Origin: an uncultured Geobacteraceae bacterium
Lineage (GTDB): Bacteria > Desulfobacterota > Desulfuromonadia > Geobacterales > Pseudopelobacteraceae
NCBI GenBank assembly: GCA_903901875.1
Contig: CAIUSO010000111.1
Location: 1-62,022 of the forward strand
DNA: 62,022 bases
Reading direction: 5' to 3'
Position 1 is the stretch's first letter. Each line of letters begins with the position of its first letter. Below, piece by piece: positions 7,171 through 33,477 of the stretch. The notes beneath the pieces were generated by a model. The model did not search any database, was not told where the DNA came from, and saw only the letters and a list, made by a program, of their open reading frames with translations. The translations under genes were made by a program, and so were the position numbers.

Positions 7171-7566
7171 TCACTCCATAAGATGACCAATCATAAGCAG
7201 CAGTATCCATACGACAAACACCATTTGCTGAGTATGAATGAGTCGCATCTGCTTCTTGGTATCGTTGGAGAACTTTTTAGAGCGCATCAGCAACCCGGCC
7301 AAAGTGAGCCAGACGGTCACAAGTAGGCTCCCGTAGAGGAACAGATTACGGTCATCGGTATAATGGGCATGAATGGTCATGAGAATAAAGGCAACAACAT
7401 TCATCCACATATGGAGATCAAGGTATTTTTTAAAGAAAAGCGCAATGTTTCTTGGCCAAGGACGAAATTGATTTGCAATTAATCGAGCCGGATAGTAGAC
7501 ATTGGCCACTACGAACAGTAGCAGTGATATAAACCCGGTAATTTCCCCAATCCACTCGTTTTCCAA
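7171..7566 (-). CDS. Four-helix membrane protein (possible b-haem protein), paralogue of 14524-14916
   Basis: 131 residues with four predicted membrane helices. His residues sit in helices 2 and 4 (DLHMWMNVVAFILMTIHAHY; RLIHTQQMVF; GH near the end), a layout that could hold haem b. It is clearly paralogous to 14524-14916: both begin MEN/MES..WI..ITG..SLLLFVVAN.YYP and contain NLFLY.SLLVTVWLT.AG. It is the last gene of the mamM-mamB unit, 23 bases after mamB. No named family was recognised. Haem binding is inferred from His placement. Confidence 0.7.
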   Translation of the reverse strand: MENEWIGEITGFISLLLFVVANVYYPARLIANQFRPWPRNIALFFKKYLDLHMWMNVVAFILMTIHAHYTDDRNLFLYGSLLVTVWLTLAGLLMRSKKFSNDTKKQMRLIHTQQMVFVVWILLLMIGHLME

Positions 7567-7589
7567 TTAGGACAGCCTCTCGGATTCTG

Positions 7590-8459
7590 TCATACCGGGT
7601 AGGTGGTAACTGATAGCCCACTGATTCCATCAACCATACCAAGAACTAACGCCCGTACTTCTTGTGTAATTTCATGCACTTCCAACATTGATTTACTTCT
7701 CGAAACCTCAATTTCGAGATCAACCCATTTTTTCTGTCCCATCTGTCGTGATTTAATCGACTTGACTCCAGTAACACCTTCAACAGTGACAGTTGCGGAG
7801 GCAATCTCGGCAACCGTCTCCGGGTCAGCGGCCATATCTATCAGGCCGTTGATCCCCTGCAAAAACATTTCAACGCTCATGTTAAAAATAAAGAGTGAAA
7901 CGATAACCGCTGCCACGGTATCAGCATCGGGATATCCGAGCTTGGCACCAATCAGACCGAGTAATACCGCCACGGAGGTAATGCTGTCGGCCTTGCTTTC
8001 ATTGGCATCAGCAAGCATTGCCGGACTCGATAGCTGGGTACCAGCACATTTGTTTGAATCGTACATCAGATAACTAAAGCAAAGAGATATTACGGTAGCA
8101 AGCAACGCAGCATTGCCGGGCATGTCATGGGTGCTGGACTTGAAGGATCTTAGTGCATCAATCAATATGCTCCCGGCACCCACAAAGAGGAACGAACTGG
8201 CACACAGGGTACTGATATATTCTATTTTACCGTAGCCATAGGGGTGTTTTTCATCATGGGGCTTGTCTGCTACCTTGAGAGCTACCAGAATAAACAGTGA
8301 CGACATGGCATCAGCAGCAGAGTGGACGCCATCGGCTACCAGTCCCTTACTTCCGGTAAGGTTTCCAATCAGCACTTTGAAGATTGCCGCAAGGGTATTA
8401 CCGAAAAAACTCCACCGCGGTGAGGTCTGTCCACATTTTAAACATTCTTCATATTTCAT
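7590..8459 (-). CDS. mamB: MamB-like cation diffusion facilitator
   Basis: 289 residues: six membrane helices, then a cytoplasmic dimerisation domain. The N-terminus MKYEECLKCG with paired cysteines is characteristic of magnetosome MamB rather than ordinary CDF exporters. The transport site shows H46-x3-D50 in helix 2 and E154-x3-D158 in helix 5, where most CDFs have His-x3-Asp. KPHDEKHPYGYGKIEY follows helix 2 as in the family. In magnetotactic bacteria MamB builds the magnetosome membrane and moves iron with MamM. It lies 16 bases after the mamM-like gene, as expected for a stoichiometric pair. An ordinary Fe/Zn exporter is the alternative, but the context argues against it. Confidence 0.85.
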   Translation of the reverse strand: MKYEECLKCGQTSPRWSFFGNTLAAIFKVLIGNLTGSKGLVADGVHSAADAMSSLFILVALKVADKPHDEKHPYGYGKIEYISTLCASSFLFVGAGSILIDALRSFKSSTHDMPGNAALLATVISLCFSYLMYDSNKCAGTQLSSPAMLADANESKADSITSVAVLLGLIGAKLGYPDADTVAAVIVSLFIFNMSVEMFLQGINGLIDMAADPETVAEIASATVTVEGVTGVKSIKSRQMGQKKWVDLEIEVSRSKSMLEVHEITQEVRALVLGMVDGISGLSVTTYPV

Positions 8460-8475
8460 GACGACCTACTCTGAC

Positions 8476-9396
8476 TCATGGCAGATACGGCTCAAAAAGG
8501 ACATTAATGGTGGTATGGTTGCCAAGTAATGCCTGAATACTCTCCTTGACATGCTGACCAATCAGATACCCCTGTTGATGGTTCAGGGTCGAATCAACCT
8601 TTATGGTCATATCCACCCAGATTCCCTGCCCCAGGTTTCTGGCGACGACCCGCGTAACCTTGCGTACGCCCGGAACCAATCGGGCCACCATTTCAATCCG
8701 CTCCACACTTTCAACCGGAACTGCGCTATCGAACAGGCCACCGAGGGAATCTCCCAACATTTCGATCCCCATCCTGACAAGAAGGATCGCTTCAATGAAT
8801 GCAACCAGCGGATCGCGGACGGTAAAATCGAGATAGTGGGCACCAAGAACCGCGACGCCTACCATAACCGACAGTATAATATTGGAACGGTTATGGCGGG
8901 CGTTGGCAAGGAGTGCCGGACTCTGCATTCGCTCACCGGCACACCCCAGATAACGGGAGAGCGGGTAGTTTGCCACGACCGAAATGAGTGCGCCCCAAAA
9001 AGCAATAACTCCGGGAATCGAGCCGGTACCGTCGTAACAAGACCAAAGCCCTTTCGCAGAGTAGACGAGAAGAAACAGGGTCGAAATAAGCAACCCCACA
9101 CTGATCAGAAACAGGGCAACATACTCAATTTTACCATGCCCATATGGATGCTGTTCATCAGCAGGTTTTCCGGATACCCTGACACCAATCACCACAACAA
9201 GCGACGCAATACAATCCTTGAATGAGAAAAGTCCATCGCCAATAAGAGCCTTACTACCGCTCAAGAGTCCGATAGCACCCTTAAAAAGAGCAAGGGCCAG
9301 GTTTGCGTAAACCCCAGCCCAACTCGCTGTTTTCTCGCATGCAGCACACTCATGAGAAGTATCACTACTTGAGTGGTGCATCACAGATGTCATCAA
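8476..9396 (-). CDS. mamM: MamM-like cation diffusion facilitator
   Basis: Up to 306 residues; internal Met codons at 9393 and 9381 are alternative starts, and the 5' end overlaps the 50-codon gene before it. CDF fold with HECAACEK at the N-terminus and KPADEQHPYGHGKIEY. The ion site is altered: helix 2 has F57-x3-D61 (as the magnetosome MamM family replaces the usual His with an aromatic) and helix 5 has H168-x3-N172, where an Asp is usual. The C-terminal domain ends with NVLFEPYLP. It probably pairs with MamB in iron transport into a membrane compartment. Confidence 0.82.
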   Translation of the reverse strand: MMTSVMHHSSSDTSHECAACEKTASWAGVYANLALALFKGAIGLLSGSKALIGDGLFSFKDCIASLVVVIGVRVSGKPADEQHPYGHGKIEYVALFLISVGLLISTLFLLVYSAKGLWSCYDGTGSIPGVIAFWGALISVVANYPLSRYLGCAGERMQSPALLANARHNRSNIILSVMVGVAVLGAHYLDFTVRDPLVAFIEAILLVRMGIEMLGDSLGGLFDSAVPVESVERIEMVARLVPGVRKVTRVVARNLGQGIWVDMTIKVDSTLNHQQGYLIGQHVKESIQALLGNHTTINVLFEPYLP

Positions 9397-9517: not shown

Positions 9518-9523
9518 GTTTAA

Positions 9524-9814
9524 TCACCATTCCTTGTGCCGATCAAATCCTACAGATATTTCTGCTCCGGATTCACCACGAATACTTACCCGGTCCCTCT
9601 TATTTTTAATTCGTCGAGCAAGGGCGACGGCCACACTCCCCGACAATGCCAGCACCAGTCCGGTAAGTACGCTGACCACCATTATCGTGCTCAGCCCGAT
9701 AGGCACCGGGTTCCCCAGAATAAACTTGACCGGCACGGGCGAACTGTTCTGGTCGAGAAAGATAATGACCATCAACAGCACGATCGATACAATAATTAAA
9801 ACAAGCCTCACCAT
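9524..9814 (-). CDS. mamL: MamL-like membrane protein (LapA/DUF1049 fold)
   Basis: 96 residues with two membrane helices (MVRLVLIIVSIVLLMVIIFL; STIMVVSVLTGLVLALSG) joined by a short loop (DQNSSPVPVKFILGNPVPIG), then a basic tail (ARRIKNKRDRVS). Size, topology and the basic C-terminus match MamL, a LapA-like protein needed to form the magnetosome membrane in alphaproteobacteria. LapA itself is a general envelope protein, so the assignment rests mainly on lying two genes upstream of mamM and mamB in one operon. Confidence 0.7.
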   Translation of the reverse strand: MVRLVLIIVSIVLLMVIIFLDQNSSPVPVKFILGNPVPIGLSTIMVVSVLTGLVLALSGSVAVALARRIKNKRDRVSIRGESGAEISVGFDRHKEW

Positions 9815-9836: not shown

Positions 9837-10085
9837 TCAAACTGCGGTAGCTGCGCTCGCGGTATTTTCTTTTTTGGAAATCACGTACACTTTATATCCC
9901 AGAAATCCAACCGCAGCGACCATTGCGAGCGGAAAAAGGCCGACTCCCAACACCGAACCACAGCAACCGGCCATAGAGTGCATACCCATGCCACAACCGG
10001 CACCATATCCCATTCCTGCTCCCGCACCATTTCCAAATGCAACCGTCTTAACGCCTGCAACCATATTCGGACAATACGCAACCAT
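9837..10085 (-). CDS. Glycine-rich single-helix protein, Mms6-like layout
   Basis: 82 residues. The start at 10085 is chosen over 10109 because AAGGAGATTGTC lies directly before it. The first part is Gly/Met/Cys-rich (GNGAGAGMGYGAGCGMGMHS), followed by one membrane helix (LFPLAMVAAVGFLGYKVYVI) and a short charged tail (SKKENTASA). The order Gly-rich stretch, helix, hydrophilic tail matches the layout of the magnetosome crystal proteins Mms6/MamD, but the acidic iron-binding tail of Mms6 is weak here and sequence identity is limited. Four cysteines may bind metal. It is the first gene of the mamL-mamB unit. I infer a mineral-associated or scaffold role with low certainty. Confidence 0.55.
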   Translation of the reverse strand: MVAYCPNMVAGVKTVAFGNGAGAGMGYGAGCGMGMHSMAGCCGSVLGVGLFPLAMVAAVGFLGYKVYVISKKENTASAATAV

Positions 10086-10207
10086 GACAATCTCCTTTTT
10101 GTGTGACAAATTTAAATGTGTATTTCATACAAACAACTCTGACAATGCAACGAATCAGAGCATACCCTAACTATTTCGTTGATATTGAACCATATATTTA
10201 AATAATA

Positions 10208-10256: not shown

Positions 10257-11174
10257 CTACAAGGCGAATACCGTCGTTGTGTCATTCATAAACCGATCAA
10301 ATTCGGGGAATGAGCTAAAGGGAAGTCCCGCTCCCAATGCGGCGCATAGAACTTCAAGCTGCTCGACATAGCAGACAGGATCCTGCTCTTCAAATGCCCG
10401 ATCCATGACGGTAAATACAGATTGAAACAGAGCCGCCCGTTCATGGCAATTTTCCTCAACCAGGCGTTGCAACTCGTCCCTATGCAGTTGAATAAGCGGC
10501 AGTGCATGGAGGCACATTTCTTCAATACGGTGCCTTCGTTCCTCGGCATACCTGAATTCGACAGGTGCCCCCAGGCTCAAGAGACCTGACTGATAAAGCA
10601 TGGTTCCAACAAAATAGCCGACCGTTGAACCGACAAGAGCACCTGCAATCGGCAAAGCAATCACCGTCTGCGCCACCGCACCATAATAAAATGAAGCCGT
10701 CCCATGCACGACGGTCTGATTGATTTCATCAAGCATCTGCCCGGCATCAATGCGATTGTCAAGATAGGCGATCAGGGATTTACTGCTCTGAACAATACCG
10801 GCTGCTATGGCCAGGTGACTGTTGTAGCGGGTGACAGTTTCCCATCCCGCCTTTTCAGCTGCAATCTGGACACCGCTGCCGATGAAACTGGTCACGTAGC
10901 CGGTTGCAATGCTTTTTGCCGAATCACTCAGTACTTCAGCAAAAATGGATCCGTGCTGTTCCTCACCATGGAGCATGCGCCACGTCTTTGCCGTGCCAAC
11001 TTTGCCTATGCTTTCGAGTATCTGGAAGGTGGTGCCCTGATAGGTATCCAGTGATATATCAGGCCACTTTTCTGCCCTGTTCCTGAGTAGGTCACCCTCG
11101 GCCAACATACTCCGTGTCGCCGCAATGACGCTTTCTACCCGGTCATTTTCAACCGCACCCCGCCTGTTCATCAT
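10257..11174 (-). CDS. Uncharacterised protein with two hydrophobic segments
   Basis: 305 residues from the ATG at 11174, which has AGGAGAGG before it. A long helical N-terminus is followed by Ser/Gly-rich weakly hydrophobic stretches (TGYVTSFIGSGVQIAAEKAG; ALPIAGALVGSTVGYFVGTM) and an acidic helical C-terminus (LHALPLIQLHRDELQRLVEE). The two Gly-zipper-like hairpins suggest membrane insertion or oligomer packing. The gene starts 35 bases after the glycine-rich protein gene and ends the operon that also holds MamP and the Rieske protein. I do not recognise a family with confidence. Confidence 0.65.
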   Translation of the reverse strand: MMNRRGAVENDRVESVIAATRSMLAEGDLLRNRAEKWPDISLDTYQGTTFQILESIGKVGTAKTWRMLHGEEQHGSIFAEVLSDSAKSIATGYVTSFIGSGVQIAAEKAGWETVTRYNSHLAIAAGIVQSSKSLIAYLDNRIDAGQMLDEINQTVVHGTASFYYGAVAQTVIALPIAGALVGSTVGYFVGTMLYQSGLLSLGAPVEFRYAEERRHRIEEMCLHALPLIQLHRDELQRLVEENCHERAALFQSVFTVMDRAFEEQDPVCYVEQLEVLCAALGAGLPFSSFPEFDRFMNDTTTVFAL

Positions 11175-11209
11175 GACGTACCTCTCCTGTCCCTCCCCGC
11201 CTGGCCTGT

Positions 11210-12511
11210 TCACACCGTAATGGCCTGCAACAGACGACGGGATTCTTCTACAATCTGACCGGACACCGTCAATAAAGTACCCTCTTCATCAAGTACGGGC
11301 GTTTCCATTATATGTTTAATGGTCTTAGCCATAAGAGCGGACATCATGACGAGCTTTTTTTCCTGGTCAGTGAAGGTGGTGTAGTCAGCAGAATTACTAC
11401 TAAGTTGTTCCGTTTCATGCAGATAGTGGGCAAAACGTTCTTCAAAGCGACAGAGAAGATAGAGAATTTCGTACACGCGAAAGCTGACCGCCTCCGTTGC
11501 TATTTGCAGGTTTTTCATATGATCGACAGCCGCAGCAGCCCTGTTGTAATTTGTCCGGGCATTCGCTTTAGCTTTTTTGGCCCTTGCAGCCATAAACAGA
11601 CCACCCAGTGCCAGAAAAGGGCCAGCTACTATTCCGCCAAGGGTCGCTGCCCCAATGGCCGTGCCGCCGGTCGCTCCCCCGGAGACCGCCGCAACCGTTC
11701 CGCCAGCCACCCCTCCGGTAACTCCGCTGACAACCCCACCGGCTGCTCCACCGGAACCGGCACAACCGGCTCCCGCCATCGCTCCGCCCCCCCATCCCAT
11801 GCCCATACCACCAGCACCGGCACCGGCCATGGCTCCGGCTCCACTCCCCATGGCCATGCCCCCGGTACCAGCCATACCCGCTCCCGTACCGGCACCAAGA
11901 CCGGCCATACCAGCCCCGGCCCCCATGCCACCTGCCATCCCCGCCACACCAGCGGCTCCGGCACACGCACCAGCGGCGGCCATACTTCCCGCTCCCATTC
12001 CGGCAATGGCACCATTAGCAGCCGCTGCTCCTGAGGCACAGCCAACTACGGTTCCGACGGTGGTCGTCCCAGACAGTGCGGCACCACCATACAGAGCCAG
12101 CGCAGTCAACCCTCCCCCCCCGACTGTTCCAATACCGGCGGTAAGGATGTCATTCATTTTTACACTTATATCGATAAGTTCAAAAAAATCAGCTTCGGTA
12201 ACGGCGAATGAGACTCCATCGCAGACGATTCCATCCTGGAAATCAACGTTTTTAAGCTTTGAAAACGCTGTAACAAATGGGATAAGACATGTTTTGTACA
12301 CATCCACTTTTTTACTACCCAGCGTATCAAAGAATATCTGAGCGGTGTTTTTGGCTTTATCCAACTCCTGAATGGCCACATCGTAACGGTTTTGCGCCTG
12401 AAGAGTATCGTTCTGTGCACGTTTATACAACGATGTGGCATCAAAGCCTTTTTTGACTCCAAAACCTCCCACCACAGTTGACATACCCAATAGAATAAAT
12501 GGTAACGGCAT
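11210..12511 (-). CDS. Glycine/methionine-rich membrane protein with coiled-coil flanks
   Basis: 433 residues with a GGGGAGG ribosome site. The N-terminus (MPLPFILLGMSTVVGGFGVK) and the following coiled coil (about 30-65) match a widespread uncharacterised bacterial family. The middle (about 125-300) is a very long Gly-Ala-Met-rich tract built of units such as GAGAGMAGLGAGTGAG and GGMAMGSGAGAM, then a basic KAKANARTNYNRAAAAVDH segment and a helical C-terminus. The tract is far longer than in the usual family and echoes the LG/GA-rich stretches of MamD, Mms6 and silk-like proteins. A scaffold or surface-templating role in the mam operon is an inference from composition and context only. Confidence 0.7.
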   Translation of the reverse strand: MPLPFILLGMSTVVGGFGVKKGFDATSLYKRAQNDTLQAQNRYDVAIQELDKAKNTAQIFFDTLGSKKVDVYKTCLIPFVTAFSKLKNVDFQDGIVCDGVSFAVTEADFFELIDISVKMNDILTAGIGTVGGGGLTALALYGGAALSGTTTVGTVVGCASGAAAANGAIAGMGAGSMAAAGACAGAAGVAGMAGGMGAGAGMAGLGAGTGAGMAGTGGMAMGSGAGAMAGAGAGGMGMGWGGGAMAGAGCAGSGGAAGGVVSGVTGGVAGGTVAAVSGGATGGTAIGAATLGGIVAGPFLALGGLFMAARAKKAKANARTNYNRAAAAVDHMKNLQIATEAVSFRVYEILYLLCRFEERFAHYLHETEQLSSNSADYTTFTDQEKKLVMMSALMAKTIKHIMETPVLDEEGTLLTVSGQIVEESRRLLQAITV

Positions 12512-12587: not shown

Positions 12588-13112
12588 TCATTCCTGAATG
12601 TACGTCTTTGCAAAATCCTTTTTTAAAAGATCCAGAGACACCCTGGCGACATCAAGCCTGCTGCTCCGCTCACCAATTACCGATTTGAGCGTCTGCCACG
12701 GATGATTGATCATATTTCTGAGGCTGGCGGGTGCCACTTCCTGAGACTCCTGATATTTCTGTAATATTTTAAATTCAAGCATTGTCAAAATATATAATAT
12801 ATCCTTGCTGGTCTTCAGGGCCTCACGAAAATCACTTTCGGCTTGAGCTGCCTTTTGTGAATTAAATTTTGGCCCGTTATGCCACTCAACGACACTATCA
12901 GCCGCAATATGAAAAATCTTGTGGCTCTTTTCCAATTGGGTAATCTCAGGAATCTCCCGATAGGTCCGAAGGCCTTCCCCGTACAACCAGACACCTAATT
13001 CGCAATCATGATAAGAGGGAAGTGATACCGTCGTGCTGCCTGCCCTCAAAACCATTTCAAGTTGATGAACCCATTCTACGTGAGTAATCCTGGCTACTGT
13101 AATATCGATCAT
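12588..13112 (-). CDS. Stand-alone CZB (chemoreceptor zinc-binding) domain protein
   Basis: 174 residues with an AGAGGTG ribosome site. The first 105 residues fit the CZB four-helix domain: a His in helix 1 (AVARITHVEWVHQLEM-type region), SYHDCELGVWLYGEG with the conserved Cys of the [H]xWxxxC-x-GxW type, and LEKSHKIFH with the paired His. CZB domains hold zinc through Cys/His and sense hypochlorous acid or zinc state, usually at the end of chemoreceptors. Here the domain is alone, between the MamP-like and Gly-rich genes. A second CZB closes the MCP at 37592-39691. A redox or metal sensor for the compartment is an inference. Confidence 0.75.
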   Translation of the reverse strand: MIDITVARITHVEWVHQLEMVLRAGSTTVSLPSYHDCELGVWLYGEGLRTYREIPEITQLEKSHKIFHIAADSVVEWHNGPKFNSQKAAQAESDFREALKTSKDILYILTMLEFKILQKYQESQEVAPASLRNMINHPWQTLKSVIGERSSRLDVARVSLDLLKKDFAKTYIQE

Positions 13113-13180: not shown

Positions 13181-13981
13181 TTACAGTAATACGTGACAAT
13201 GGGTGCAGGTACCGCGGTCACGGTGTGGTGGCGGTGTTCCCATTTTGATGTTAGGGGCTGTTCGGGAAAGAACGTCACCCATATCTTTTGCCATCTGATT
13301 AAGATTGGTACCGCCGGGAGCGATTGAATGGCATTTGTCACAGGGGCCGTAATAGCCGTGGGGGGGGCGATCAGTAGCAAGAATCATCGGTGCTCCCTCC
13401 ACCTGTGCAAGACCAAGCACATCGGTAGCTGTGATACGAATAGTTTTGTTGGCCCCGTTCCGGTAAATACTTACATCGGCCTGGCTTGCCTGAGCAACCT
13501 GTCGAGTCGCCTCCTTAAATGACGTGAGGTCACTCAGCGGAGTCCCGTTAATAGCGGTAATTATGTCGCCGGCAAGCAGCCCGGCATCAGCTGAAACCAA
13601 CGTTACCTCGTCAACAAGTACCCCCGTAATAGTTGACGGGATATTATTGGCTTTTGCCACTGCAGCAGAAAGTGGACCAACTTCTAACCCGATCCAGTGC
13701 GCCTCAATCCAGGTTTTACCCAACGCACCACCTGCCACCGGTACGACAGCGCGACCGGCGTAGCCATAGGAAATCTCCTCTTTCATGACCATACCCGCCA
13801 CTGGTATCGTAGTGGTGTTGGCTACGCGGGAACCAGGCGGCTGAGTCAATTCTGTTTCTGGTTCCGCCATCTCTCCCCCTCCCCTTTGGACGTCCGCCAA
13901 GTAAAAAAAGTAGACGTACACAAACGAACCAATCAGGACTAAAAGGAACAGTGGATTTGCAAAAAGACCAAGTTGTTTCAT
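13181..13981 (-). CDS. mamP: MamP-like PDZ/magnetochrome protein
   Basis: 266 residues from the ATG at 13981, which gives one N-terminal membrane helix (FLLVLIGSFVYVYFFYL); an upstream GTG at 14026 is possible. A PDZ domain spans about 95-185 (IGLEVGPLSAAVA ... AGLLAGDIITAING). Then come two magnetochrome motifs of the type PPHxxxGxCxxCH, with haem-attachment CDKCH at 214-218 and CTHCH at 259-263, the last ending four residues from the C-terminus. This order (helix, PDZ, two MCR) is that of MamP, the magnetosome iron oxidase that sets the Fe(III)/Fe(II) ratio. The acidic Fe pocket cannot be judged by eye. Confidence 0.88.
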   Translation of the reverse strand: MKQLGLFANPLFLLVLIGSFVYVYFFYLADVQRGGGEMAEPETELTQPPGSRVANTTTIPVAGMVMKEEISYGYAGRAVVPVAGGALGKTWIEAHWIGLEVGPLSAAVAKANNIPSTITGVLVDEVTLVSADAGLLAGDIITAINGTPLSDLTSFKEATRQVAQASQADVSIYRNGANKTIRITATDVLGLAQVEGAPMILATDRPPHGYYGPCDKCHSIAPGGTNLNQMAKDMGDVLSRTAPNIKMGTPPPHRDRGTCTHCHVLL

Positions 13982-14071
13982 TCCGGTATGCAACCACATG
14001 CAAACACTACAGCAATCAAAATGCACCCCTCGTTCTCTTAGTTACGTAATGCGGCATAGTGAAAAGGGAAT

Positions 14072-14509
14072 CTAACCGACCGTGATCATACCGTTGGATA
14101 CCGTAAAGGGGAGCTTTTCCAGGGCCCGGGGTGGTGGGCCGGAAATCACAACACCATCCGGAGTAAAATACCCGGCGTGACATGGGCAGAGAAAATCCTG
14201 CCGCTCTTTTTCCCACTGAACAATACAACCAAGATGGGGACAGACAGCGGAAAGAGCCACAATAGCTCCATCCTGCTTTTTGAGCACCACTGCTGCGGTC
14301 CCGTTATAATCAAAGAACTTAGCATCACCGACGGCGATTTCATTAACCCCAATGGAAGTTTTTCCGCCACTCCCACTTGATGGTTTCGGCACCAGATAAT
14401 ACCGAAACAGCGGATACGTAACCGCCGCAATTCCAACAGCAGCGAGTGTGGCAACGCCACCAAGGCAGACGCGAATGAACATGCGTTTCGCGGGATCTAT
14501 TTCAGACAT
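14072..14509 (-). CDS. Rieske iron-sulfur protein (bc-type complex)
   Basis: 145 residues from the ATG at 14509, chosen over 14557 because GAGGAGAAT lies directly before it. One N-terminal helix (about 11-38, with a Tat-less FIRVCLGGVATLAAVG start) anchors a soluble domain with both cluster boxes complete: C90-P-H92-L-G-C95 and C108-P-C-H111. The ligands are C90, H92, C108 and H111; C95 and C110 form the disulfide. It lies 90 bases upstream of mamP in the same operon. Its natural partner, a cytochrome b, is encoded at 30425-31531 beside mamE rather than here. Confidence 0.88.
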   Translation of the reverse strand: MSEIDPAKRMFIRVCLGGVATLAAVGIAAVTYPLFRYYLVPKPSSGSGGKTSIGVNEIAVGDAKFFDYNGTAAVVLKKQDGAIVALSAVCPHLGCIVQWEKERQDFLCPCHAGYFTPDGVVISGPPPRALEKLPFTVSNGMITVG

Positions 14510-14523
14510 ATTCTCCTCACAGC

Positions 14524-14916
14524 TTATAATTTTCCGCACGCACGAAGCACCAACCATCCGACCAGTACGGTTTGCTGTGAGTAAAGAAGACGCACTCTTT
14601 TTCTGTAATTGGCGGAAAACAGGTTAACGCGTAACAAAAATCCGGCAATGGTCAACCAGACGGTAACCAGTAGGCTCATATACAAAAACAGATTTCGATT
14701 ACCGCTCACAGAGGCGTTGAGTGATATCAGCAAAAAAGCAAGTGCGTTCAACCACATATGAATATCTCTATATTTGTTTAAAAAGAGTTCAACAGTTAAT
14801 GGCAAGAGACGATTAGGGCTAAAAATCCATCGAACCGGGTAATAAGCATTGGCGACTATAAACAGTAGCAACGAGACCATCCCGGTTATTTTCTCAATCC
14901 ACTCTACCGATTCCAT
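14524..14916 (-). CDS. Four-helix membrane protein, paralogue of 7171-7566
   Basis: 130 residues with a GGAGG ribosome site. It has the same four-helix plan as 7171-7566 (SLLLFVVANAYYPVRWIF; DIHMWLNALAFLLISLNAS; NLFLYMSLLVTVWLTIAG). It keeps the helix-2 His in IHMW but lacks the second His of that helix and has SQQ where the paralogue has HTQQ, so any haem site would differ. It heads the operon with the Rieske gene 15 bases downstream, suggesting a partner or assembly factor for the redox complex. Confidence 0.7.
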   Translation of the reverse strand: MESVEWIEKITGMVSLLLFIVANAYYPVRWIFSPNRLLPLTVELFLNKYRDIHMWLNALAFLLISLNASVSGNRNLFLYMSLLVTVWLTIAGFLLRVNLFSANYRKRVRLLYSQQTVLVGWLVLRACGKL

Positions 14917-15038
14917 TACGAATTAACCTCCAGATCTCTTGATTCAGCTAAACAAGCCAACCTCTGCCTACAACAAACAGTTCAAAGATTTATTACTAAG
15001 AAAACTTCAACTACAATGTACGGAATGAACAAAAAGTT

Positions 15039-15046
15039 CAATAGTG
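15039..15046 (-). promoter_or_regulatory. CACTATTG element in the divergent intergenic region
   Basis: Minus-strand TTTAATCACTATTGAAC, 122 bases before the start at 14916. The region 14917-15232 separates the mamP operon from the divergent tetR gene, is strongly AT-rich and holds no further gene. Promoters for both directions must lie here, but no single -35/-10 pair stands out. Confidence 0.35.
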
Positions 15047-15232
15047 ATTAAACCACCAAAATATGACTACTAATTATAGCTATATTTGCAAAACATCCTA
15101 TTGTATTATGTACTTGTATTGTTTACATATTGTTCGTCAGCCACCAACAGAACACTTCTACCCATAAATATACTTGCATATATATTCATTTATTAATACT
15201 ATGTGAATTAATAATCGCATGAGGTAATACTA

Positions 15233-15820: not shown

Positions 15821-15884
15821 TTTTTTTGCTTAGCATGTGAATAAAAAATCACATAAAACAATTTTACATTTAGTGGTGCCTAAC

Positions 15885-20350: not shown

Positions 20351-20359
20351 ATTGACTTC

Positions 20360-21856: not shown

Positions 21857-21860
21857 TTCA

Positions 21861-22553: not shown

Positions 22554-22754
22554 GGCACGGCCCCTTGATTCGAGAAAAACGTATGATCCCATGCTACCTG
22601 AAATACAGTCATTTGTTTGTAAAAAAATGTAAAACACTGGAGTCGAATTTTACAAAACTTTACAAATATCCCTCATAACTTAACACAAAAGATTCTTAAT
22701 TTTGAGTAAGCTTGAATTATCCGGATAGTAGTTTCAAGAGTGTGGGGGTACCAG

Positions 22755-23813: not shown

Positions 23814-23826
23814 AGGAGACTCTATC

Positions 23827-24762: not shown

Positions 24763-24773
24763 GGAGAATACGT

Positions 24774-26489: not shown

Positions 26490-26502
26490 TCAGGTAGTTG
26501 TT

Positions 26503-26536
26503 TGCTGCCATACTATGAGAAAATAGTATGGCAGCA
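26503..26536 (+). terminator. Perfect 14-bp stem hairpin
   Basis: TGCTGCCATACTAT and ATAGTATGGCAGCA pair perfectly around a 6-base loop (GAGAAA), 13 bases after the lipoprotein stop. No T-run follows directly, so it could be a terminator or an mRNA-stabilising hairpin that lowers read-through into the phosphoesterase gene. Confidence 0.6.
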
Positions 26537-26601
26537 CCAATAATGGAAATAACATACTGAATATGTACATTTGAATCTGCAGAGAAGTAATGGAGGGGAA
26601 A

Positions 26602-29600
26602 ATGGCACCGCACAATTTCACCGGTAACCTGCCTGGGAAGTTTCTGGAAAGCGAAGTAACCCGGCGAGAGTTTTTGAAAAAAACGGCCGCCGGTGCCGGA
26701 GCCGTTGCCGCCACCATAATTACCGGTGGCTGCGGTACAAGCAGCATCCAGGGGCGCGGTATGATTGCGGCCTCTTTGGATTGGAGGCTTACACCTAAAA
26801 CCGCTGCCAAAACTGTTTTTTCTGCTCCCACCGGTGTTGAGACGATACGACTCATCGTATCCGCCCCCGATGTTTATCCCGCCATCCTGAAGGATTTTGC
26901 CGTAGCCGCCGGGTCTGGCATGGTTGATGGTGTACCAGCGGGCACGGGGAGAATATTGACGGCTCAAGGGCTGGACAGTTCAGGAACGGTCACCTATCAA
27001 GGAAGCATCACCAATATTACGGTTCAAGCAGGACAGACCACCAACGCCGGAACGCTTATCATGATCCCCGTCGCCCTGGGTTCATTCAGCGGTTCAATCG
27101 TACTCGGTTCACCGACAACCACGTCTATCAGAGCAAATATATTCGCTGCAGACCAGAGCGGCACCATCACCCTCACCTATGGTATTTCCTCCGGTAATTA
27201 CGAGAAACAACTCCCCGACGCACCGCTTGTTGCCGGGCAACCACTGCTGTTAACCGTCAACGGTCTTTCTCCCGATACCCGTTACTATTATAAACTTATG
27301 TTTCAGAGCAGTGACGGTGTTGGCTCCGGTCCGACAAAAGAGTATCTCTTTCATACGGCGAGAGCAATTGGCAGTGCTTACTCCTTTACCATCCAGGCAG
27401 ATTCACACCTCGACGAGAACTCAGACCTGGACACCTATTATAGAACACTGTCCAATATCGGCGCGGATGCACCTGATTTTCACATCGACCTAGGTGATAC
27501 ATTCATGTGCGAGAAGCACTCTGAACCTCTCTCCGCTACGGTGCACATGGCACCGGATCAGGCTACCGTCGACAGCCGGTATCGTTATGATCTGAACAAA
27601 TTTGCCACTATTACCCATTCGGTACCGCTCTTTCTGGTAAATGGCAACCATGAGGGAGAAGCCGGCTGGCTACACGATGGAACCGCCCAAAACGTTGCCG
27701 TCTGGGCGACACAGGCCCGTCAGCGCTATTTTCTTAATCCGGTTCCGGATAATTTCTATAGTGGCGACTCCACCGAAGAACCATTTGTCGACAAACGAGC
27801 TTCCTGGTACTCGTGGCAATGGGGCAATGCCCGCTTCATTGTTCTTGATCCTTTCTGGAAGAGCATGACCCAAAGCAGCAGGGACCCCTGGGCTATTACT
27901 CTCGGAACAACGCAATACCAATGGCTTCAGTCCACACTTGCTTCAAATCAGGCAACCTTTACCTTTGTATTCATCCATAATCTGACCGGTGGGCTTGACG
28001 GGCAGATGCGCGGCGGCATTGAGGCGGCACCTTTTTTTGAATGGGGGGGTAAAAATCTCGACGGGACAGAAGCTTTCAGCCAAAAACGTCCCGGGTGGGG
28101 TAAAACGATTCATCAGCTGCTGGTCCAGTACAAAGTAACGGCAGTATTTCACGGGCACGATCATCTCTACGACAAACAGGTTCTTGATGGCGTTCCGTAT
28201 GTAGAAGTACCCCAGCCAAGTGCCCAAAATGCTCTGAGTGGGCCGGGTCTGGCGTCAGAATATCACTATTCGGCCGGCACTATTCTCAGTAGTTCCGGGC
28301 ATATTCGCGTACATGTCACCCCGAACGAGGTAACCGTCCAGTACATACGATCATGGCTGCCGACACAAGAAAACTCCCAGCAAAAAAATGCTCAGGTCAG
28401 TGACCTCTGGAAATGCACGGCTAATGGAATTGTAACCGGTTCATTCGCCGGATCAATTATCCTCGGTTCTCCGACAGGCACATCAATCAGGGTAAATATC
28501 CATTCTGCAAGCCAAAGCGGTTCGGTCTATCTTGAGTACGGTACGTTGCCCGGAAATTATACCAGGAGAACAGAGACGACTGCGCTGGTCGCCGATACTC
28601 CGCTGGAAATTGCCCTGAATGGACTTGACCGGGACACTCTCTACTACTATCGTCTTTATTATCAGGCAGCGAATGAAGCAGGCCCCGGCCCTACGGAGGA
28701 ATATTCATTTCATACGGCGCGATCCGCTGGAAATACGTTTACCTTTTGTATTCAAGGGGATTCCCATCCGGAGCGGCTCAACAGCCAATTCAACGCTGAG
28801 CTCTACTCCCGTACACTCTCGACGGCAGCGGCAGACAAGCCCGATTTCTATCTTGCAATCGGAGATGACTTCAGTATAGATCAACTCAATCCGGCAACAA
28901 TAACCGCGACCCAGGTGAGAGAACGCTACACGATCCAGCGTCCATATCTCGGACTGGTAGGTTCAAATGCACCATTATTTCTTATCAACGGCAACCACGA
29001 ACAGGCGGCCCGCTATCTGCTGGATGGAACACCCAATAATGTGGCCGTCTGGGCCCAGAACGCACGTAATACCCTCTATTCTCAGCCGGCACCTGATAGC
29101 TTTTACAGTGGCAACACAGAGCAGGTACCGTACATCGGACTGCTCAGGAACTATTTCGCCTGGAACTGGGGTGATGCCCTGTTTGTGGTTATTGACCCTT
29201 ACTGGGGATCACCGGTCTGCGCCGACAACCCCTTTGACGGCAGCAGCAAACGGAGCAATCTCTGGGATGTCACCCATGGCAATGAGCAGTATCAATGGTT
29301 TAAGACAACTCTTGAGCAGAGTTCAGCAAAATATAAATTTGTCTTTGCACACCACGTAATGGGTACGGGGCGTGGCGGCATTGAGTTGGCAGGAAGCTAC
29401 GAGTGGGGCGGGAAAAGCGGCAACGGCACGTGGGGTTTTACGGCAAATCGGCCATCATGGCCCACTCCGATACATCAGTTGATGTCTGCAAATAAAGTCA
29501 CTATTTTCTTTCAGGGGCATGATCACATCTGGGTCAGGCAGCAACTTGACGGCGTTACCTACCAGACGCTGCCGGAGCCGGCAGACCCGTTTTACACGCT

Positions 29601-29781
29601 TTATAATGACAGTGTTTTTCTGAGCGGTGATAAATTTTCCAATACCGGTTACACGAGGGTCACCGTCACACCTTCATCCGTCGGGGTTGAATATGTGCGC
29701 ACCTATCTCCCTAAAGATGAGGGGCCTGGCAAAATAAGCGGCACTACAGCTTTCAGCTATTCGATAGCGTCAACTTCATAA
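26602..29781 (+). CDS. Tat-exported lipoprotein with tandem purple-acid-phosphatase-like phosphoesterases
   Basis: 1059 residues. The ATG at 26602 is preferred to 26590 because GGAGGGG sits four bases before it. TRREFLKKTAAGAGAV is a Tat motif and ITGGC a lipobox. Residues about 45-150 repeat the module of the two previous lipoproteins. Then two copies of an Fn3-like plus calcineurin-type phosphoesterase unit follow (about 155-610 and 615-1055). Each has a full metal set: ADSH/GDSH, LGDT/IGDD, GNHE, FIHN/FAHH and GHDH. Exported folded through Tat, it probably hydrolyses phosphomonoesters or phosphodiesters outside the cell. The end overlaps a convergent pseudogene. Confidence 0.88.
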   Translation: MAPHNFTGNLPGKFLESEVTRREFLKKTAAGAGAVAATIITGGCGTSSIQGRGMIAASLDWRLTPKTAAKTVFSAPTGVETIRLIVSAPDVYPAILKDFAVAAGSGMVDGVPAGTGRILTAQGLDSSGTVTYQGSITNITVQAGQTTNAGTLIMIPVALGSFSGSIVLGSPTTTSIRANIFAADQSGTITLTYGISSGNYEKQLPDAPLVAGQPLLLTVNGLSPDTRYYYKLMFQSSDGVGSGPTKEYLFHTARAIGSAYSFTIQADSHLDENSDLDTYYRTLSNIGADAPDFHIDLGDTFMCEKHSEPLSATVHMAPDQATVDSRYRYDLNKFATITHSVPLFLVNGNHEGEAGWLHDGTAQNVAVWATQARQRYFLNPVPDNFYSGDSTEEPFVDKRASWYSWQWGNARFIVLDPFWKSMTQSSRDPWAITLGTTQYQWLQSTLASNQATFTFVFIHNLTGGLDGQMRGGIEAAPFFEWGGKNLDGTEAFSQKRPGWGKTIHQLLVQYKVTAVFHGHDHLYDKQVLDGVPYVEVPQPSAQNALSGPGLASEYHYSAGTILSSSGHIRVHVTPNEVTVQYIRSWLPTQENSQQKNAQVSDLWKCTANGIVTGSFAGSIILGSPTGTSIRVNIHSASQSGSVYLEYGTLPGNYTRRTETTALVADTPLEIALNGLDRDTLYYYRLYYQAANEAGPGPTEEYSFHTARSAGNTFTFCIQGDSHPERLNSQFNAELYSRTLSTAAADKPDFYLAIGDDFSIDQLNPATITATQVRERYTIQRPYLGLVGSNAPLFLINGNHEQAARYLLDGTPNNVAVWAQNARNTLYSQPAPDSFYSGNTEQVPYIGLLRNYFAWNWGDALFVVIDPYWGSPVCADNPFDGSSKRSNLWDVTHGNEQYQWFKTTLEQSSAKYKFVFAHHVMGTGRGGIELAGSYEWGGKSGNGTWGFTANRPSWPTPIHQLMSANKVTIFFQGHDHIWVRQQLDGVTYQTLPEPADPFYTLYNDSVFLSGDKFSNTGYTRVTVTPSSVGVEYVRTYLPKDEGPGKISGTTAFSYSIASTS

Positions 29782-30321
29782 TGGGACTCCCAGCAGCTTC
29801 ATCTTACGGTACATCGTCGTCTTGTGAATACCCAGCTCTCGTGCTGCCGCAACACGACTGAAGCTGTTTCTTTGCAGTGCACGCAGAATGGATTGTTCTT
29901 CGGCAAATTTTGCTGCTGTCTGTTGAATCTCCCCACGAAATGATCCACGAGCAAGGGAATATCCTCCTTACGCCTTCGCAGTGGCGGCAGTTCCAAAGAG
30001 ATACTATTTATCCGACAATAAAGATCCTGGCGAAATTCACCATTTTTAACCATGGCTGCCAGGTCCCGGTTTGTCGCAACGAGGATTCGTGCATTTGACT
30101 TCTCTGAGTGTGTTGAACCCAACGGTTCGAAAGTGATTTGAACACTTCAGAGCAAAGCCGCCCCAATGCATCATCACGAGTTATTCCGGTAATATTCTCG
30201 GCAGCTCTGTTAAAAAAGTCACACGCCAGTTCATATCAATGGTAAACACCCCGTCAGATATGCTCTCCAAAATGGCGTTGGCCGGAGCTAACAATTCGTG
30301 TTCAGTATTTTTGGTAACCAT
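29776..30321 (-). pseudogene. Broken PAS-AAA+-Fis sigma-54 activator
   Basis: Three parts of an NtrC-type activator remain. The start (30321) encodes a PAS-like ANAILESISDGVFTIDMNW; a frame slip near 30210 leads to NRAAENITGITRDDALGRLC. The frame then jumps straight to ARILVATNRDLAAMVKNGEF and LPPLRRRKEDIPLLVDHF, the late AAA+ region. A further slip near 29890 leads to the Fis-type helix-turn-helix ARELGIHKTTMYRKMKLLG. Walker A, GAFTGA and Walker B are gone, so it cannot remodel sigma-54. The final codons overlap the phosphoesterase stop. Confidence 0.8.
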
Positions 30322-30424
30322 GTAAGTCCGCTCGCTTCTACACAAAGTTTACCATGATAACGACCAATGGCTTACAGAGGCATCACAAAATAACATCTTC
30401 CGGGCCATTGGCAGATTATGAAGA

Positions 30425-31531
30425 TCACGAATAGTGCCCCCACACCGTCAACCCGATCCAAAGTACAATGCCCGCTATGGAAGAGAACGTAAACAACTGG
30501 CGTTTAAGCGGATGTTTTTCTCTCCCCCGGTCCATGAAAGGAAGCAGGGCCAGAAAGATTACGGCAATTACCTGAACTGAAAGACCGATGATCTCACTGG
30601 GAAAAAGTTTCAGGGTCTGATAATTCGCCAGAAAGAACCATTCCGGCTTTATGTGGGCCGGTGTCACCAACGGGTTGGCTGGCAGATATGATGAGGAGGG
30701 AATGAATAGATTCGGTGCAAAGAAAACCAGTGCGATGAGACAGGCAACATAGAGGGAGATGGAGACCAGATCCTGGAGCAGAAAATTGGGGAAGAAGGGT
30801 TTTCCTTCCGGAAGCTGAGCCGGGGCATCGTCCTCCCCGCGCCCCCATTGATTACGCGTATCATCAAGCCCAAAAGGTGGGGTAGACACACCGGTGCATT
30901 TAACAAGAAAGAGATGGATACAAATCATCACCGCAATGGATGCCGGCAACAGCCCCACATGGAACATGTAGAAGCGGCCAATGGTCTGGGGCCCCACCTG
31001 CGTGCCTCCCCGCAGCAACGTGACCAGGTAATTGCCGAACACAGGAACAGAGCCGGCACAATCGGTTGCAATGGTGGTTGCCCAATAGGAAAGTTGATTC
31101 CAGGGAAGCAGATAGCCGGTAAGTGATATTCCCATGGCAAGTAGCAGGAGCGTAAATCCGCTCAGCCAGTGAAGCTCCCGTGGGCTTTTGTACCCACCCA
31201 TGAAGAGCACTGAAAGCAGATGGAGTAACAGTACGGTGATCATCATACTGGAGCCAACAGCGTGAAAAAGGCGGACTAACCGGCCAAGGGGGATGCCTTC
31301 CATGATAAAGGAAACCGTATCAAAAGCCTTGTCAGCATCCGGCACATAATAGATCATCAGGAGCAGGCCGGTGACAATCTGCAGAGCAAAGATAACCAGC
31401 AACACGCTGCCCAGTGAGTACCAGGCGTTGATATTGTGAGGAAGAAGCGTGCTCTTCTGTTCTCCCTTATCCGGGGATAAACCCAACCGCACATCAAGCC
31501 AACGGTATATATGAGTAAATAGTTCTAACAT
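30425..31531 (-). CDS. Cytochrome b (b6 plus subunit IV) of a bc-type quinol oxidising complex
   Basis: 368 residues with 7-8 helices. The haem ligands are H90/H104 (14 apart) and H191/H206 (15 apart). The 15-residue second spacing is the b6-type value, yet the subunit-IV half with the Qo-site motif P296EWF is fused on. Only the quinol-oxidising b subunit is here; no cytochrome c1 gene is adjacent. It lies 35 bases after mamE, and the only Rieske protein in the window is in the mamP operon. I infer that the two form one complex feeding magnetochromes. Confidence 0.88.
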   Translation of the reverse strand: MLELFTHIYRWLDVRLGLSPDKGEQKSTLLPHNINAWYSLGSVLLVIFALQIVTGLLLMIYYVPDADKAFDTVSFIMEGIPLGRLVRLFHAVGSSMMITVLLLHLLSVLFMGGYKSPRELHWLSGFTLLLLAMGISLTGYLLPWNQLSYWATTIATDCAGSVPVFGNYLVTLLRGGTQVGPQTIGRFYMFHVGLLPASIAVMICIHLFLVKCTGVSTPPFGLDDTRNQWGRGEDDAPAQLPEGKPFFPNFLLQDLVSISLYVACLIALVFFAPNLFIPSSSYLPANPLVTPAHIKPEWFFLANYQTLKLFPSEIIGLSVQVIAVIFLALLPFMDRGREKHPLKRQLFTFSSIAGIVLWIGLTVWGHYS

Positions 31532-31566
31532 AAACCCCTCATCAGCGGTTCCATTTTAGCCAGTAA

Positions 31567-33234
31567 CTATCGTACCACTTTAATTCTTGCCGTCTGGCGG
31601 GAACCATTCCGTAAATAGACCAGCTCAAACCTGCTGCCTGTTTTTTGCGAAGCGAGCAGGGTAACGAGGCTACGGTAGTCACGTATTTTTCTTCCGGTTA
31701 TCCTGAGCAGAATATCCCCCGGCTGAATACCGGCAGTGGCCCCGGGGCCGCCCGCCATGACATTCGTGACATACACCCCCTCCGGATGGAGCATCTGCGC
31801 CTGACGGCAGATGATGTCATCAACATCAATAAGTGCGACCCCCAATGTCGGTTCGTTCAAAGCCATCCCCTGAACAGCACCCCGGTAGGGTGTATTCTGC
31901 ATCAAGCCACGTCCACCCCCCCTGCCGCCACCTGGCCCACCGAACGCCCAGGCGGCCGGCACTGCGGCCTGGGTTTTGGCCATTTGCTCAAGAAAGGAGA
32001 GCTGGTGGCAATTGGTGCAGAGACCTCGCAATGTATGGGGCGGTTTCACCGTCATACCGTTTGGTAAAAGATAGCTGTTACCGACCAGGCGCCCCTCACC
32101 TCCACGGGCAACCTGCTGTCCGGTTGTTCCCCCCTGCTGTTCGAACAGTTGGGGATGACAATCAACACAGGCACCAAGGGGGCCATGGGGAGCAACCACG
32201 GTCTGACCATTGGGGAGACGATAATTATTACCGACCTGCCGCCCCTGACTGGCCCAGGCTACCAGTTGCCCCGCTGTGGTACCGGGTGCCGTATTGTTGA
32301 AATCGATGACCCCCGCAACCAGACCGGCTGCCCGATTAATCGGTGTGGCAAAACCAACGCCGTTGAAGACACCGGTCGGAGCAAAGATGGCGGTATTGAT
32401 CCCGATGACTTCACCTTTAATATTGAGCATTGGTCCACCGCTACTCCCACTATTGATGGCAGAATCGGTCTGGAACAGATTTTCGTATACCACATCTCCC
32501 ATCTGGAGTGTCCGGTTACGACTACTGATCATACCGGAGGTTACTGTCTGCTCAAGACCGAAGGGACTGCCAATGGTCAGCACCATATCTCCGGTGCGGA
32601 CGGCATCAGAGTTGCCAAGCGGTGCAGAGGGAAACGGCCCGCTCCCCTGTATCCGTAAAAGTGCCAGATCGCTGCGCAGATCCCCCTTTACCAGTTTCAG
32701 CGGGAACTCCATCGATCCACCGGAACCGTACACGGTAGCTTTTACGGCTTCAGCACCGACAATCACATGATAACTGCTCAAGACATATCCTCGGGAATCA
32801 ATGATAATTCCCGAACCGATTCTGTTGAATGCAATATCGGCAGGGAATGGGCCAGTACCGGCCTGACCGGGTACATTCTGGGCAGACGGAACCGCAGCTT
32901 CGATGCTCACTACCGCCGGCCTGACAGCATCGATGAGTTGATGATAGGACAGCTGTACATTGCCGACGACTGCCGTCACCTGAGCCGCCGGAACCAAAGA
33001 GGTGCCTGCAGCAAGTTGTGCAGATTGCGGAGTCGTCTTAGCCACTGCTCCCTTTCTTGAAAGAAAGGCATTGATGTACTCGTCATGCTGCGAACCTTCA
33101 TAGAGTGCCCACACAATAGTCAATAGTGACATTACCACCAACGCCATAATCCACGGTTTATAGTTCCGTGTGCAGACCGCTCCCGACTGCACAACATCAC
33201 CAGCATCACGTTTGATTTTTCTATCCGAAGACAT
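31567..33234 (-). CDS. mamE: MamE-like trypsin/magnetochrome/PDZ protein
   Basis: 555 residues: membrane helix (about 29-45), trypsin-like protease (about 95-310) with an intact triad H156, D189 and S265 (in GSSGGP), two magnetochrome motifs (CVDCH at 356-360 and CTNCH at 406-410, each preceded by PHxxxG), a Gly/Arg-rich linker (430-455) and one PDZ domain (about 465-553). This protease-MCR-PDZ order is diagnostic of MamE, which matures other magnetosome proteins and starts crystal growth. Classical MamE has two PDZ domains; only the C-terminal one is seen here. An ordinary DegP protease would lack the c-haem motifs. Confidence 0.92.
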   Translation of the reverse strand: MSSDRKIKRDAGDVVQSGAVCTRNYKPWIMALVVMSLLTIVWALYEGSQHDEYINAFLSRKGAVAKTTPQSAQLAAGTSLVPAAQVTAVVGNVQLSYHQLIDAVRPAVVSIEAAVPSAQNVPGQAGTGPFPADIAFNRIGSGIIIDSRGYVLSSYHVIVGAEAVKATVYGSGGSMEFPLKLVKGDLRSDLALLRIQGSGPFPSAPLGNSDAVRTGDMVLTIGSPFGLEQTVTSGMISSRNRTLQMGDVVYENLFQTDSAINSGSSGGPMLNIKGEVIGINTAIFAPTGVFNGVGFATPINRAAGLVAGVIDFNNTAPGTTAGQLVAWASQGRQVGNNYRLPNGQTVVAPHGPLGACVDCHPQLFEQQGGTTGQQVARGGEGRLVGNSYLLPNGMTVKPPHTLRGLCTNCHQLSFLEQMAKTQAAVPAAWAFGGPGGGRGGGRGLMQNTPYRGAVQGMALNEPTLGVALIDVDDIICRQAQMLHPEGVYVTNVMAGGPGATAGIQPGDILLRITGRKIRDYRSLVTLLASQKTGSRFELVYLRNGSRQTARIKVVR

Positions 33235-33243
33235 CAGCAGCTC

Positions 33244-33477
33244 CTATTCGTCCTTTTTCCGTCGCGACACGTCCGGTTCAGGGGAGGTCTGTTTTCTGGT
33301 GTTGAGAGCATTACGCATGCCGGTATTTCTGACTCCGGCCATCAGGGCAATTACCCCACCAGAGAGGAGCAGCAGCGGGAGAAGGGCAATCATTACGTCA
33401 ACAACGTACCACCAGTATTTCACCATGCTCCAGAACCCGAGACTCATTGCAATCAAACCGAATACGATACTTAGCAC
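33244..33477 (-). CDS. mamI: MamI-like magnetosome membrane protein
   Basis: 77 residues with two helices, the first IVFGLIAMSLGFWSM, then KYWWYVVDVM and LLPLLLLSGGVIALMAGVRN. The hydrophobic pattern with the central WW between helices and the GGVIALMAGV end closely follows alphaproteobacterial MamI, which is needed to form the magnetosome membrane. The tail is hydrophilic (SPEPDVSRRKKDE). mamE starts nine bases downstream, consistent with co-translation. MamI has no common non-magnetosome relatives, which makes this one of the more specific calls. Confidence 0.82.
   Translation of the reverse strand: MLSIVFGLIAMSLGFWSMVKYWWYVVDVMIALLPLLLLSGGVIALMAGVRNTGMRNALNTRKQTSPEPDVSRRKKDE

Follow-up and report, generated by a model that had tools for sequence, protein, structure and literature searches.

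The DNA considered here, referred to as the window, is contig CAIUSO010000111.1 (C111, 62,022 nucleotides) of an uncultured Geobacteraceae assembly (GCA_903901875.1, here G000; 4.30 Mb in 169 contigs, 99.76% complete, 1.9% contamination), and it carries two blocks of magnetosome (mam) genes that are diverged copies of genes in a full mam cluster on another contig of the same genome, C45. Family searches of the window's open reading frame (ORF) translations with NCBIfam and Pfam models, scored against curated cut-offs, find MamB, MamM and MamP in the first block and MamE and MamI in the second, all as intact ORFs, in agreement with an earlier note made from the letters of this DNA (Table 1). 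In transcription order block 1 (14916-7171) reads mad2a-Rieske-MamP-CZB-433 aa-318 aa-90 aa-LapA-MamM-MamB-mad2b and block 2 (33477-30425) MamI-MamE-cytochrome b, where CZB denotes a chemoreceptor zinc-binding domain. Intergenic gaps inside the blocks range from -34 to 147 bp, the two loci lie 15,508 bp apart, and all 14 named genes are open; a CcoG remnant of 61 residues comes straight after mad2b.

Table 1. Positions, strands and basis of assignment of the window features
Feature	Position	Strand	Basis
CcoG-like polyferredoxin remnant, 61 of 427 residues	6964..7146	-	tblastn, 74% to CcoG of the C12 islet
Mad2-type small membrane protein, copy b, 131 aa	7171..7566	-	74% to C45 protein between MamB and MamA
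MamB	7590..8459	-	NCBIfam, Pfam, tree; 81% to C45 MamB
MamM	8476..9396	-	NCBIfam, Pfam, tree; 64% to C45 MamM
LapA-domain protein (MamL/Mad10-like)	9524..9814	-	LapA_dom 28.3 bits, cut-off 28.0
90-aa Gly/Met-rich protein	9837..10109	-	55-98% homologues adjoin second-set genes in G103, G107, G110, G111
318-aa second-set protein	10257..11213	-	homologues in G103, G107, G109, G111
433-aa protein, middle Gly/Ala/Met-rich	11210..12511	-	homologues in G103, G107, G109, G111
CZB domain protein	12588..13112	-	PF13682 41.7 bits; homologues in relatives
MamP, PDZ and two CXXCH magnetochromes	13181..14026	-	families; 73% over 195 residues to C45 MamP
Rieske [2Fe-2S] protein	14072..14557	-	PF00355 51.1 bits; 72.5% to C45 Rieske
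Mad2-type small membrane protein, copy a, 130 aa	14524..14916	-	52% to copy b
Inter-block stretch	14917..30424		TetR, TolC/HlyD/FtsX/ABC exporter, sensor kinase, response regulator, lipoprotein-like genes, double phosphoesterase
Cytochrome b, fused b6 and subunit IV form	30425..31531	-	PF00033, PF00032 above cut-off; 72% to C45 cytochrome b
MamE: HtrA protease, two CXXCH, one PDZ	31567..33234	-	family models, motifs
MamI	33244..33477	-	64.7 bits, cut-off 80; 61% to C45 MamI
Hybrid histidine kinase	33507..35783	-	29 bp upstream of mamI
CoA-disulfide-reductase-like flavoprotein, rhodanese-like tail (tail by eye)	35849..37552	-	gap 65 bp
Chemoreceptor, Tll0287-like sensor and CZB domain	37592..39709	-	gap 39 bp

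None of the five window Mam proteins reaches its curated NCBIfam cut-off: MamM scores 326 bits (cut-off 350) against its own model and 220 against that of MamB, MamB scores 227 (cut-off 350) and 222 against that of MamM, MamP reaches 213 (cut-off 300), and MamE reaches 249 (cut-off 800) and 262 with the general HtrA model. As the NCBIfam models thus hardly part MamB from MamM, the identity of the former is taken from its tree, in which the window copy belongs to a clade of 14 MamB rows (100/99), MamB as a whole requiring 2 changes, and three alphaproteobacterial rows fall outside, one of them on a long branch (3.21) and perhaps not a MamB. In the MamM tree the window protein falls with its namesakes from magnetotactic bacteria, and all 20 MamM rows make up a single clade (100/98) that excludes the seven ordinary cation diffusion facilitators (CDFs), which rules out for MamM the ordinary CDF exporter that the earlier note had named as the alternative. 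The Pfam magnetochrome model PF18509 matches MamP above its cut-off (48.8 bits against 30.4) and MamE below it (23.9), and in MamE two CXXCH motifs stand in place. The latter further has one PDZ and the H, D and S that an active HtrA protease would need, at what we take to be the motif positions, and its assignment draws on the haem motifs, the position beside mamI and kinship to the C45 copy. The MamI model is unspecific by itself: of 395 genomes of the phylum, 124 have a match at E≤1e-3 (mostly 21-54 bits, none above cut-off), and a phylum-wide scan was consequently too unspecific to locate distant clusters. Together, these data lead us to regard the window's MamB, MamM, MamP, MamE and MamI as true magnetosome homologues in a Geobacter-type genome.

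The remaining block 1 proteins are less sharply defined by family. At 9524-9814, where MamL had been named earlier, no NCBIfam model matches and LapA_dom alone is found; by its position near mamP the protein may be Mad10. The 7171-7566 protein matched no Pfam or NCBIfam family and owes its Mad2 name to synteny, standing where mad2 stands in the LBB01 cluster. By alignment, the true start of MamP probably lies 15 codons inside the annotated ORF, and its linker is shorter than in relatives. Structure models of the 318- and 433-aa proteins have a mean predicted local distance difference test score (pLDDT) of 40 and 43, respectively.

Three core components are missing from the window, as the earlier note had observed: MamK, MamA and MamQ gave no tblastn match at E≤1e-3 with the genome's own copies as queries, and the full query set gave none in five mononucleotide-shuffled windows. 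As for MamO, the MamE proteins cross-match its model at 115-122 bits (cut-off 800), no genome-wide search for MamO having been made. The nine-gene list A, B, M, K, P, Q, E, O, I (PMC9376291) is therefore represented in the window by B, M, P, E and I only, and in the G000 genome overall by A, B, M, K, P, Q, E and I.

The main cluster and second sets in relatives

The genome-wide profile search proposed earlier recovered further mam genes, including a full cluster on C45. It comprises MamK (415 bits, above cut-off), MamP, MamM (374 bits, above cut-off), an EcsC-like protein, a MamQ-like protein, MamB, mad2, MamA (143 bits, cut-off 200), MamI, MamE (both below their NCBIfam cut-offs) and MamQ (84 bits, cut-off 250), together with a 369-aa protein (WD40-like by eye), a 293-aa protein, TauE, Rieske, cytochrome b, a multihaem cytochrome c and a small LG-rich protein; FeoA/FeoB-like genes (by eye) lie on the opposite strand. 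Its MamP had been skipped in the ORF listing in favour of a longer antisense ORF and was recovered by the family search. The earlier suggestion that the system may be incomplete in the window and completed elsewhere holds in so far as MamK, MamA and MamQ do lie elsewhere in the genome, but C45 carries a full cluster of which the window holds a paralogous part-copy. With identities of 58-81% (Table 1), the window genes are best described as diverged paralogues of the C45 genes, and they can be explained without invoking an iron compartment distinct from magnetosomes. Lowest is MamE, 58% identical to its C45 counterpart, which bears a single CXXCH and extends further at the C-terminus, where a second PDZ-like part lies; the window MamE is closer (68%) to a third MamE, on C12. 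The latter belongs to an islet (L031, 12663-17223) of MamI-MamE-MamQ-multihaem c-CcoG amid housekeeping genes, also present on G107:C8; LpxC on C12 is the sole LpxC match in the genome.

Second mam sets are also found repeatedly in uncultured relatives. A MamI match, in no case above cut-off, occurs in 9 of 141 genomes of the order (G000, seven other members of its genus and one genome from a different genus of the family). All nine carry a MamK above cut-off, as opposed to none of five controls (genus members without a MamI match), six have two strong MamP genes (>200 bits) and three have one (controls ≤33.4 bits), and six have two MamM genes above 300 bits. The relatives referred to here are the uncultured Geobacteraceae metagenome-assembled genomes (MAGs) E14_bin-2280 (G107), MJ-2014_bin-1737 (G110), LJ_bin-4045 (G103), AlinenLipids_bin-4284 (G109) and A-4_bin-085 (G111), as well as Desulfuromonadales MAG_21600_9_004 (G082) and MAG_13126_9_058 (G081), which Uzun et al. 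2020 list as Pelobacteraceae (PMC7449369). A passage of the same paper assigns mam, mad and man genes to three Pelobacteraceae MAGs of genus UBA8499, so magnetosome clusters in the genus are already published.

The nearest second-set copy is that of G107, 87-99% identical over 12 compared genes and spread over two contigs; its MamE and MamP blocks lie about 2 kb apart, separated by a module whose permease and ArsR parts match window positions 1.5-3.0 kb. The window itself holds at 1521-4689 an ArsR-type gene (recognized by eye), a SaoE-like permease, and genes resembling thioredoxin and, by eye, CcdA. In G110, the MamA region is shared by contigs C320 and C824, which are identical over 119 bp and 99% identical over another 153 bp, the 288 bp of C320 between these stretches being missing in C824; this suggests the order CZB-90 aa-LapA-MamP-MamM-MamB-mad2-MamA-MamI-MamE-MamQ-multihaem c. 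The second set on G109:C236 includes MamK and MamA, and G111:C5 has the main cluster and, some 12 kb off, multihaem c-MamQ-mad2-90 aa-CZB on one 48-kb contig. Distant copies of the accessory genes (CZB, 318, 433 and 90 aa) are found in G103, G109, G110 and G111, not all four in each, and adjoin MamP, MamM, MamB, MamE, MamI or mad2; the 433-aa homologues adjoin the 318-aa gene, mad2, MamA or MamP (G103, G107, G109, G111). A CZB protein 75% identical to the window's also lies on the MAG_22309 cluster contig (L247, 19307-19843) beside a LysR-type gene (by eye), and such a gene adjoins CZB in G111:C5 too.

By their trees, MamE, MamM and MamB each have a second-set lineage found in more than one genus member: four second-set MamM rows group together (95/97), the window MamB pairs with that of G110:C824 (99/97), and eight second-set and C12-type MamE rows from six genomes form a clade (88/98; seven of them 95/91) apart from the main-cluster rows. 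The MamA and MamK trees resolve little. A recent duplication is ruled out, as main and window MamB are synonymously saturated (proportion of synonymous differences, pS, 0.77) and second-set MamE proteins cluster across species.

Substitution rates (nonsynonymous, dN, and synonymous, dS) were obtained as Nei-Gojobori counts on a single species pair, G000 versus G107, with MamB and MamI left out and MamE and cytochrome b compared over part of their length. The compared second-set genes are under purifying selection, with dN/dS of 0.011-0.263 in 12 of 12 and no internal stops. Their dS (0.208-0.402) amounts to roughly one third to one half of the values for three other contigs, namely the main cluster (0.501-1.089, 16 genes), C12 (0.789-1.321, 13 genes) and C161 (0.488-0.972, 12 genes), and six non-mam genes of C111 itself give 0.350-1.119, five of them at least 0.587. 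The mam blocks thus look younger between G000 and G107 than most of the surrounding contig, which suggests, as the simplest reading of these counts, that they were recently exchanged laterally or recombined.

The Rieske/cytochrome b pair and neighbouring genes

A Rieske protein and a cytochrome b accompany both the window set and the C45 cluster. In the window PF00355, PF00033 and PF00032 all score above cut-off, and the cytochrome b shows paired His and PEWF, presumably its signature motifs; a multihaem c partner, present in C45 and C12, was not detected in the window by tblastn with those two copies. The main-cluster pair follows TauE in all seven genus genomes assembled at that point (G000, G107, G103, G109, G110, G111 and G081), with one extra gene between TauE and Rieske in G109 and G081; in G082 the contig ends before it and no full-length copy was found in its genome, and G069, of another genus, gave no match to the pair. 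On the MAG_22309 cluster contig, outside the genus, TauE and Rieske are separated by one gene, and cytochrome b, multihaem c and the LG-rich gene come next, an order that agrees with that of the main cluster. PMC9376291 places MAG_22309 in another class than MAG_13126 and MAG_21600, although the class names in its passages seem swapped with those of PMC7449369. The LG-rich protein of C45 (79 aa; L008 5240-5479, G000:C45:81240-81479) matches MamD (36 bits), Mms6 (29) and MamG (25.5), all below cut-off, and has homologues in six other genus genomes (G109 in part) and in MAG_22309.

Second-set-type Rieske or cytochrome b genes were found in G000, G107 and G111. Another cytochrome b, 60-62% identical to the window's, forms its own clade of 5 rows (100/100) from G075, G076 and G077, which lack MamI, and from G109 and G081, which bear it in addition to the cluster copy; G085 and G092 have distant cytochrome b only. 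In the tree the window copy is unresolved among cluster-linked copies, and the group 'MGC' needs 3 changes; a partial row, G103_C284part, carried the label 'other' with its surroundings not checked. Given the cluster linkage and the separate clade of the other cytochrome b, the pair looks like a dedicated cluster part and is a candidate electron link from the quinone pool to the magnetochromes.

A passage of PMC3971196 (2014) calls magnetochrome electron transfer an open question and magnetochrome proteins the only magnetosome redox proteins. No report of a Rieske protein in a magnetosome cluster was found in open-licence PMC papers (supplements not covered), and in the portion of PMC7604359 consulted the word occurs only in the reference list. 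It is as a tentative proposal, which we hold with more doubt than conviction, that we combine the two observations: a laterally exchanged second set may come with a magnetosome-own, quinone-linked bc-type complex that would set the redox state of the magnetochromes, in which case the cluster would itself encode the electron partner of MamP and MamE. As it accompanies mamE and mamP in both paralogous sets, and recurs in a MAG from beyond the genus, the Rieske/cytochrome b pair is a testable candidate for the magnetochrome partner.

The surroundings of the blocks also deserve description. Between the two loci lie an exporter, lipoproteins and a phosphoesterase, as the earlier note had read; TolC, HlyD, FtsX and the phosphoesterase are backed by family matches, and TetR, the ABC ATPase, kinase, regulator and lipoproteins were recognized by eye. 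Three lipoprotein-like genes and the double phosphoesterase occupy 22740-29781, and three of these four have 55-79% relatives about 9.6 kb from the second-set MamE on G110:C320, a neighbourhood that may not be due to chance. Upstream of MamI, the kinase, flavoprotein and chemoreceptor genes run in the same direction with gaps of 29-65 bp, and the hybrid histidine kinase possibly shares an operon with mamI. The Tll0287-like sensor of the chemoreceptor bears a CXXCH, and its gene is possibly co-transcribed with mamI-mamE-cytochrome b. Finally, second copies of polyamine genes lie at 44050-61713 (speA and nspC being also on C161), adjoined by carboxynorspermidine synthase and lipid genes.

Function, origin and known systems

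In light of these results, we consider it probable that the window holds a second, paralogous set beside a full cluster, the products of which are variant magnetosome parts, and that this set was exchanged, trimmed and split in G000. In Magnetospirillum, MamB and MamM load ferrous iron and MamE processes magnetosome proteins; the second-set proteins would do likewise as variant parts joining the magnetosomes specified by the C45 cluster, with MamP and the extra haem of MamE handling iron redox and the Rieske/cytochrome b pair tying the c-type haems to the quinone pool. The set would then most likely tune iron supply and crystal growth rather than build an organelle alone. The fuller second sets of relatives and the CcoG remnant point to an ancestor with a more complete second cluster, of the kind still seen in G110 and G109, which may have been exchanged within the genus and then trimmed and split in G000.

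Several observations weigh against such a functional set. The set is split in the window and the CcoG remnant shows loss, and the dN/dS of the second set lies above that of the main cluster (0.024-0.081, 7 genes), which fits relaxed constraint. G107 has deleted MamB (window positions 8474 and 7632 are adjacent there) and has a truncated cytochrome b; G111 has its Rieske beside MamE on C96 and its cytochrome b, with an internal stop, on C25; and in G109 and G110 the second-set contigs showed neither Rieske nor cytochrome b. On G109:C236, MamP is only 156 aa long, and MamE groups with second-set rows while MamM groups with the G081 main copy (96/86). The MamP and MamI trees are mostly unresolved and hold no single second-set clade, and the organism is known only from a 169-contig assembly. 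The 15.5-kb split, the missing MamK, MamA and MamQ, the CcoG remnant, the losses in G107 and the higher dN/dS would also suit a decaying leftover without function of its own, the main cluster doing all the work; yet with every block gene open in the window and dN/dS at or below 0.263 without internal stops in all genes compared, we regard this as unlikely.

Less likely still is that the set gives rise to an iron compartment of its own, or to magnetosomes of a second kind (with another crystal type, for instance), beside those of the main cluster. It does have its own MamB, MamM, MamP, MamE and MamI, its accessory genes are kept with second-set genes elsewhere, and some magnetotactic bacteria are described as having two clusters for two minerals (PMC9145555, in the passage concerned), but MamK, MamA and MamQ are not in the window and the second-set proteins branch within the main-set family. 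A greigite-type second cluster is in particular unsupported by this branching, in trees that held no greigite-type reference. That C111 stems from another magnetotactic species and was misbinned seems very improbable. The 1.9% contamination, the second speA and nspC copies and a second-set dS to G107 unlike that of other contigs speak for it, as does composition, where the three C111 pieces correlate at 0.886, 0.958 and 0.794 with 11 reference pieces (0.807-0.962 among themselves), the last value, for the 40-62 kb part, falling just under the range; pieces of G107 reach 0.949 and 0.973, and congeners are therefore not distinguished by this measure. Against misbinning, five of six non-mam C111 genes have a dS of 0.587-1.119, in the range of other contigs (the sixth has 0.350), the separate assembly G107 has the same pair of sets, and G111:C5 bears the main cluster and second-set-type genes on one contig.

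The favoured reading, a second set supplying variant parts, can be set against several known systems. The C45 gene order is that of the man-type cluster of LBB01 (Ca. Magnetomonas plexicatena), given in PMC9376291 as mamK...mamP-mamM-mad31-mamQ2-mamB-mad2-mamA-mamI-mamE-mamQ...mamO-Cter, with a separate TauE protein in place of mamO-Cter, and it is shared by the man-type MAG_13126 (L132), MAG_21600 (L131) and MAG_22309 (L133); passages of PMC7449369 and PMC9376291 on such clusters mention no second mam set, and the word cytochrome is absent from the main text of the latter, whereas the C45 cluster has a bc-type pair. For the man-type LBB04, PMC9376291 reports bullet-shaped magnetosomes. No report of a second mam set in Geobacteraceae was found in open-licence PMC papers (supplements not covered). 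The AMB-1 magnetotaxis islet is likewise a second locus outside the main island, with a 53%-identical MamE and other mam homologues (PMC3971196, in part); among the genes of the window set are those for a CDF pair, MamP, a Rieske protein and a cytochrome b. Magnetotactic bacteria with magnetite and greigite also have two clusters in one genome (PMC9145555, same passage), but both G000 sets fall within one family in the MamM/MamB and MamE trees.

Second partial mam operons, scattered and differentially lost, are further described for Alphaproteobacteria in the relevant part of PMC6819731, with nine paralogous proteins more than 80% identical and, in five strains, most genes above 98%; the G000 paralogues, in contrast, are 58-81% identical and come with their own accessory genes and a bc-type pair. 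Since the genus shows cluster duplication, likely exchange and erosion together, it is a good place to study how organelle parts are gained and lost. Duplication of mam genes is thus known from PMC6819731, as far as that part goes, and what the present set adds is its lineage, how far its copies have diverged, and its accessory genes and bc-type pair.

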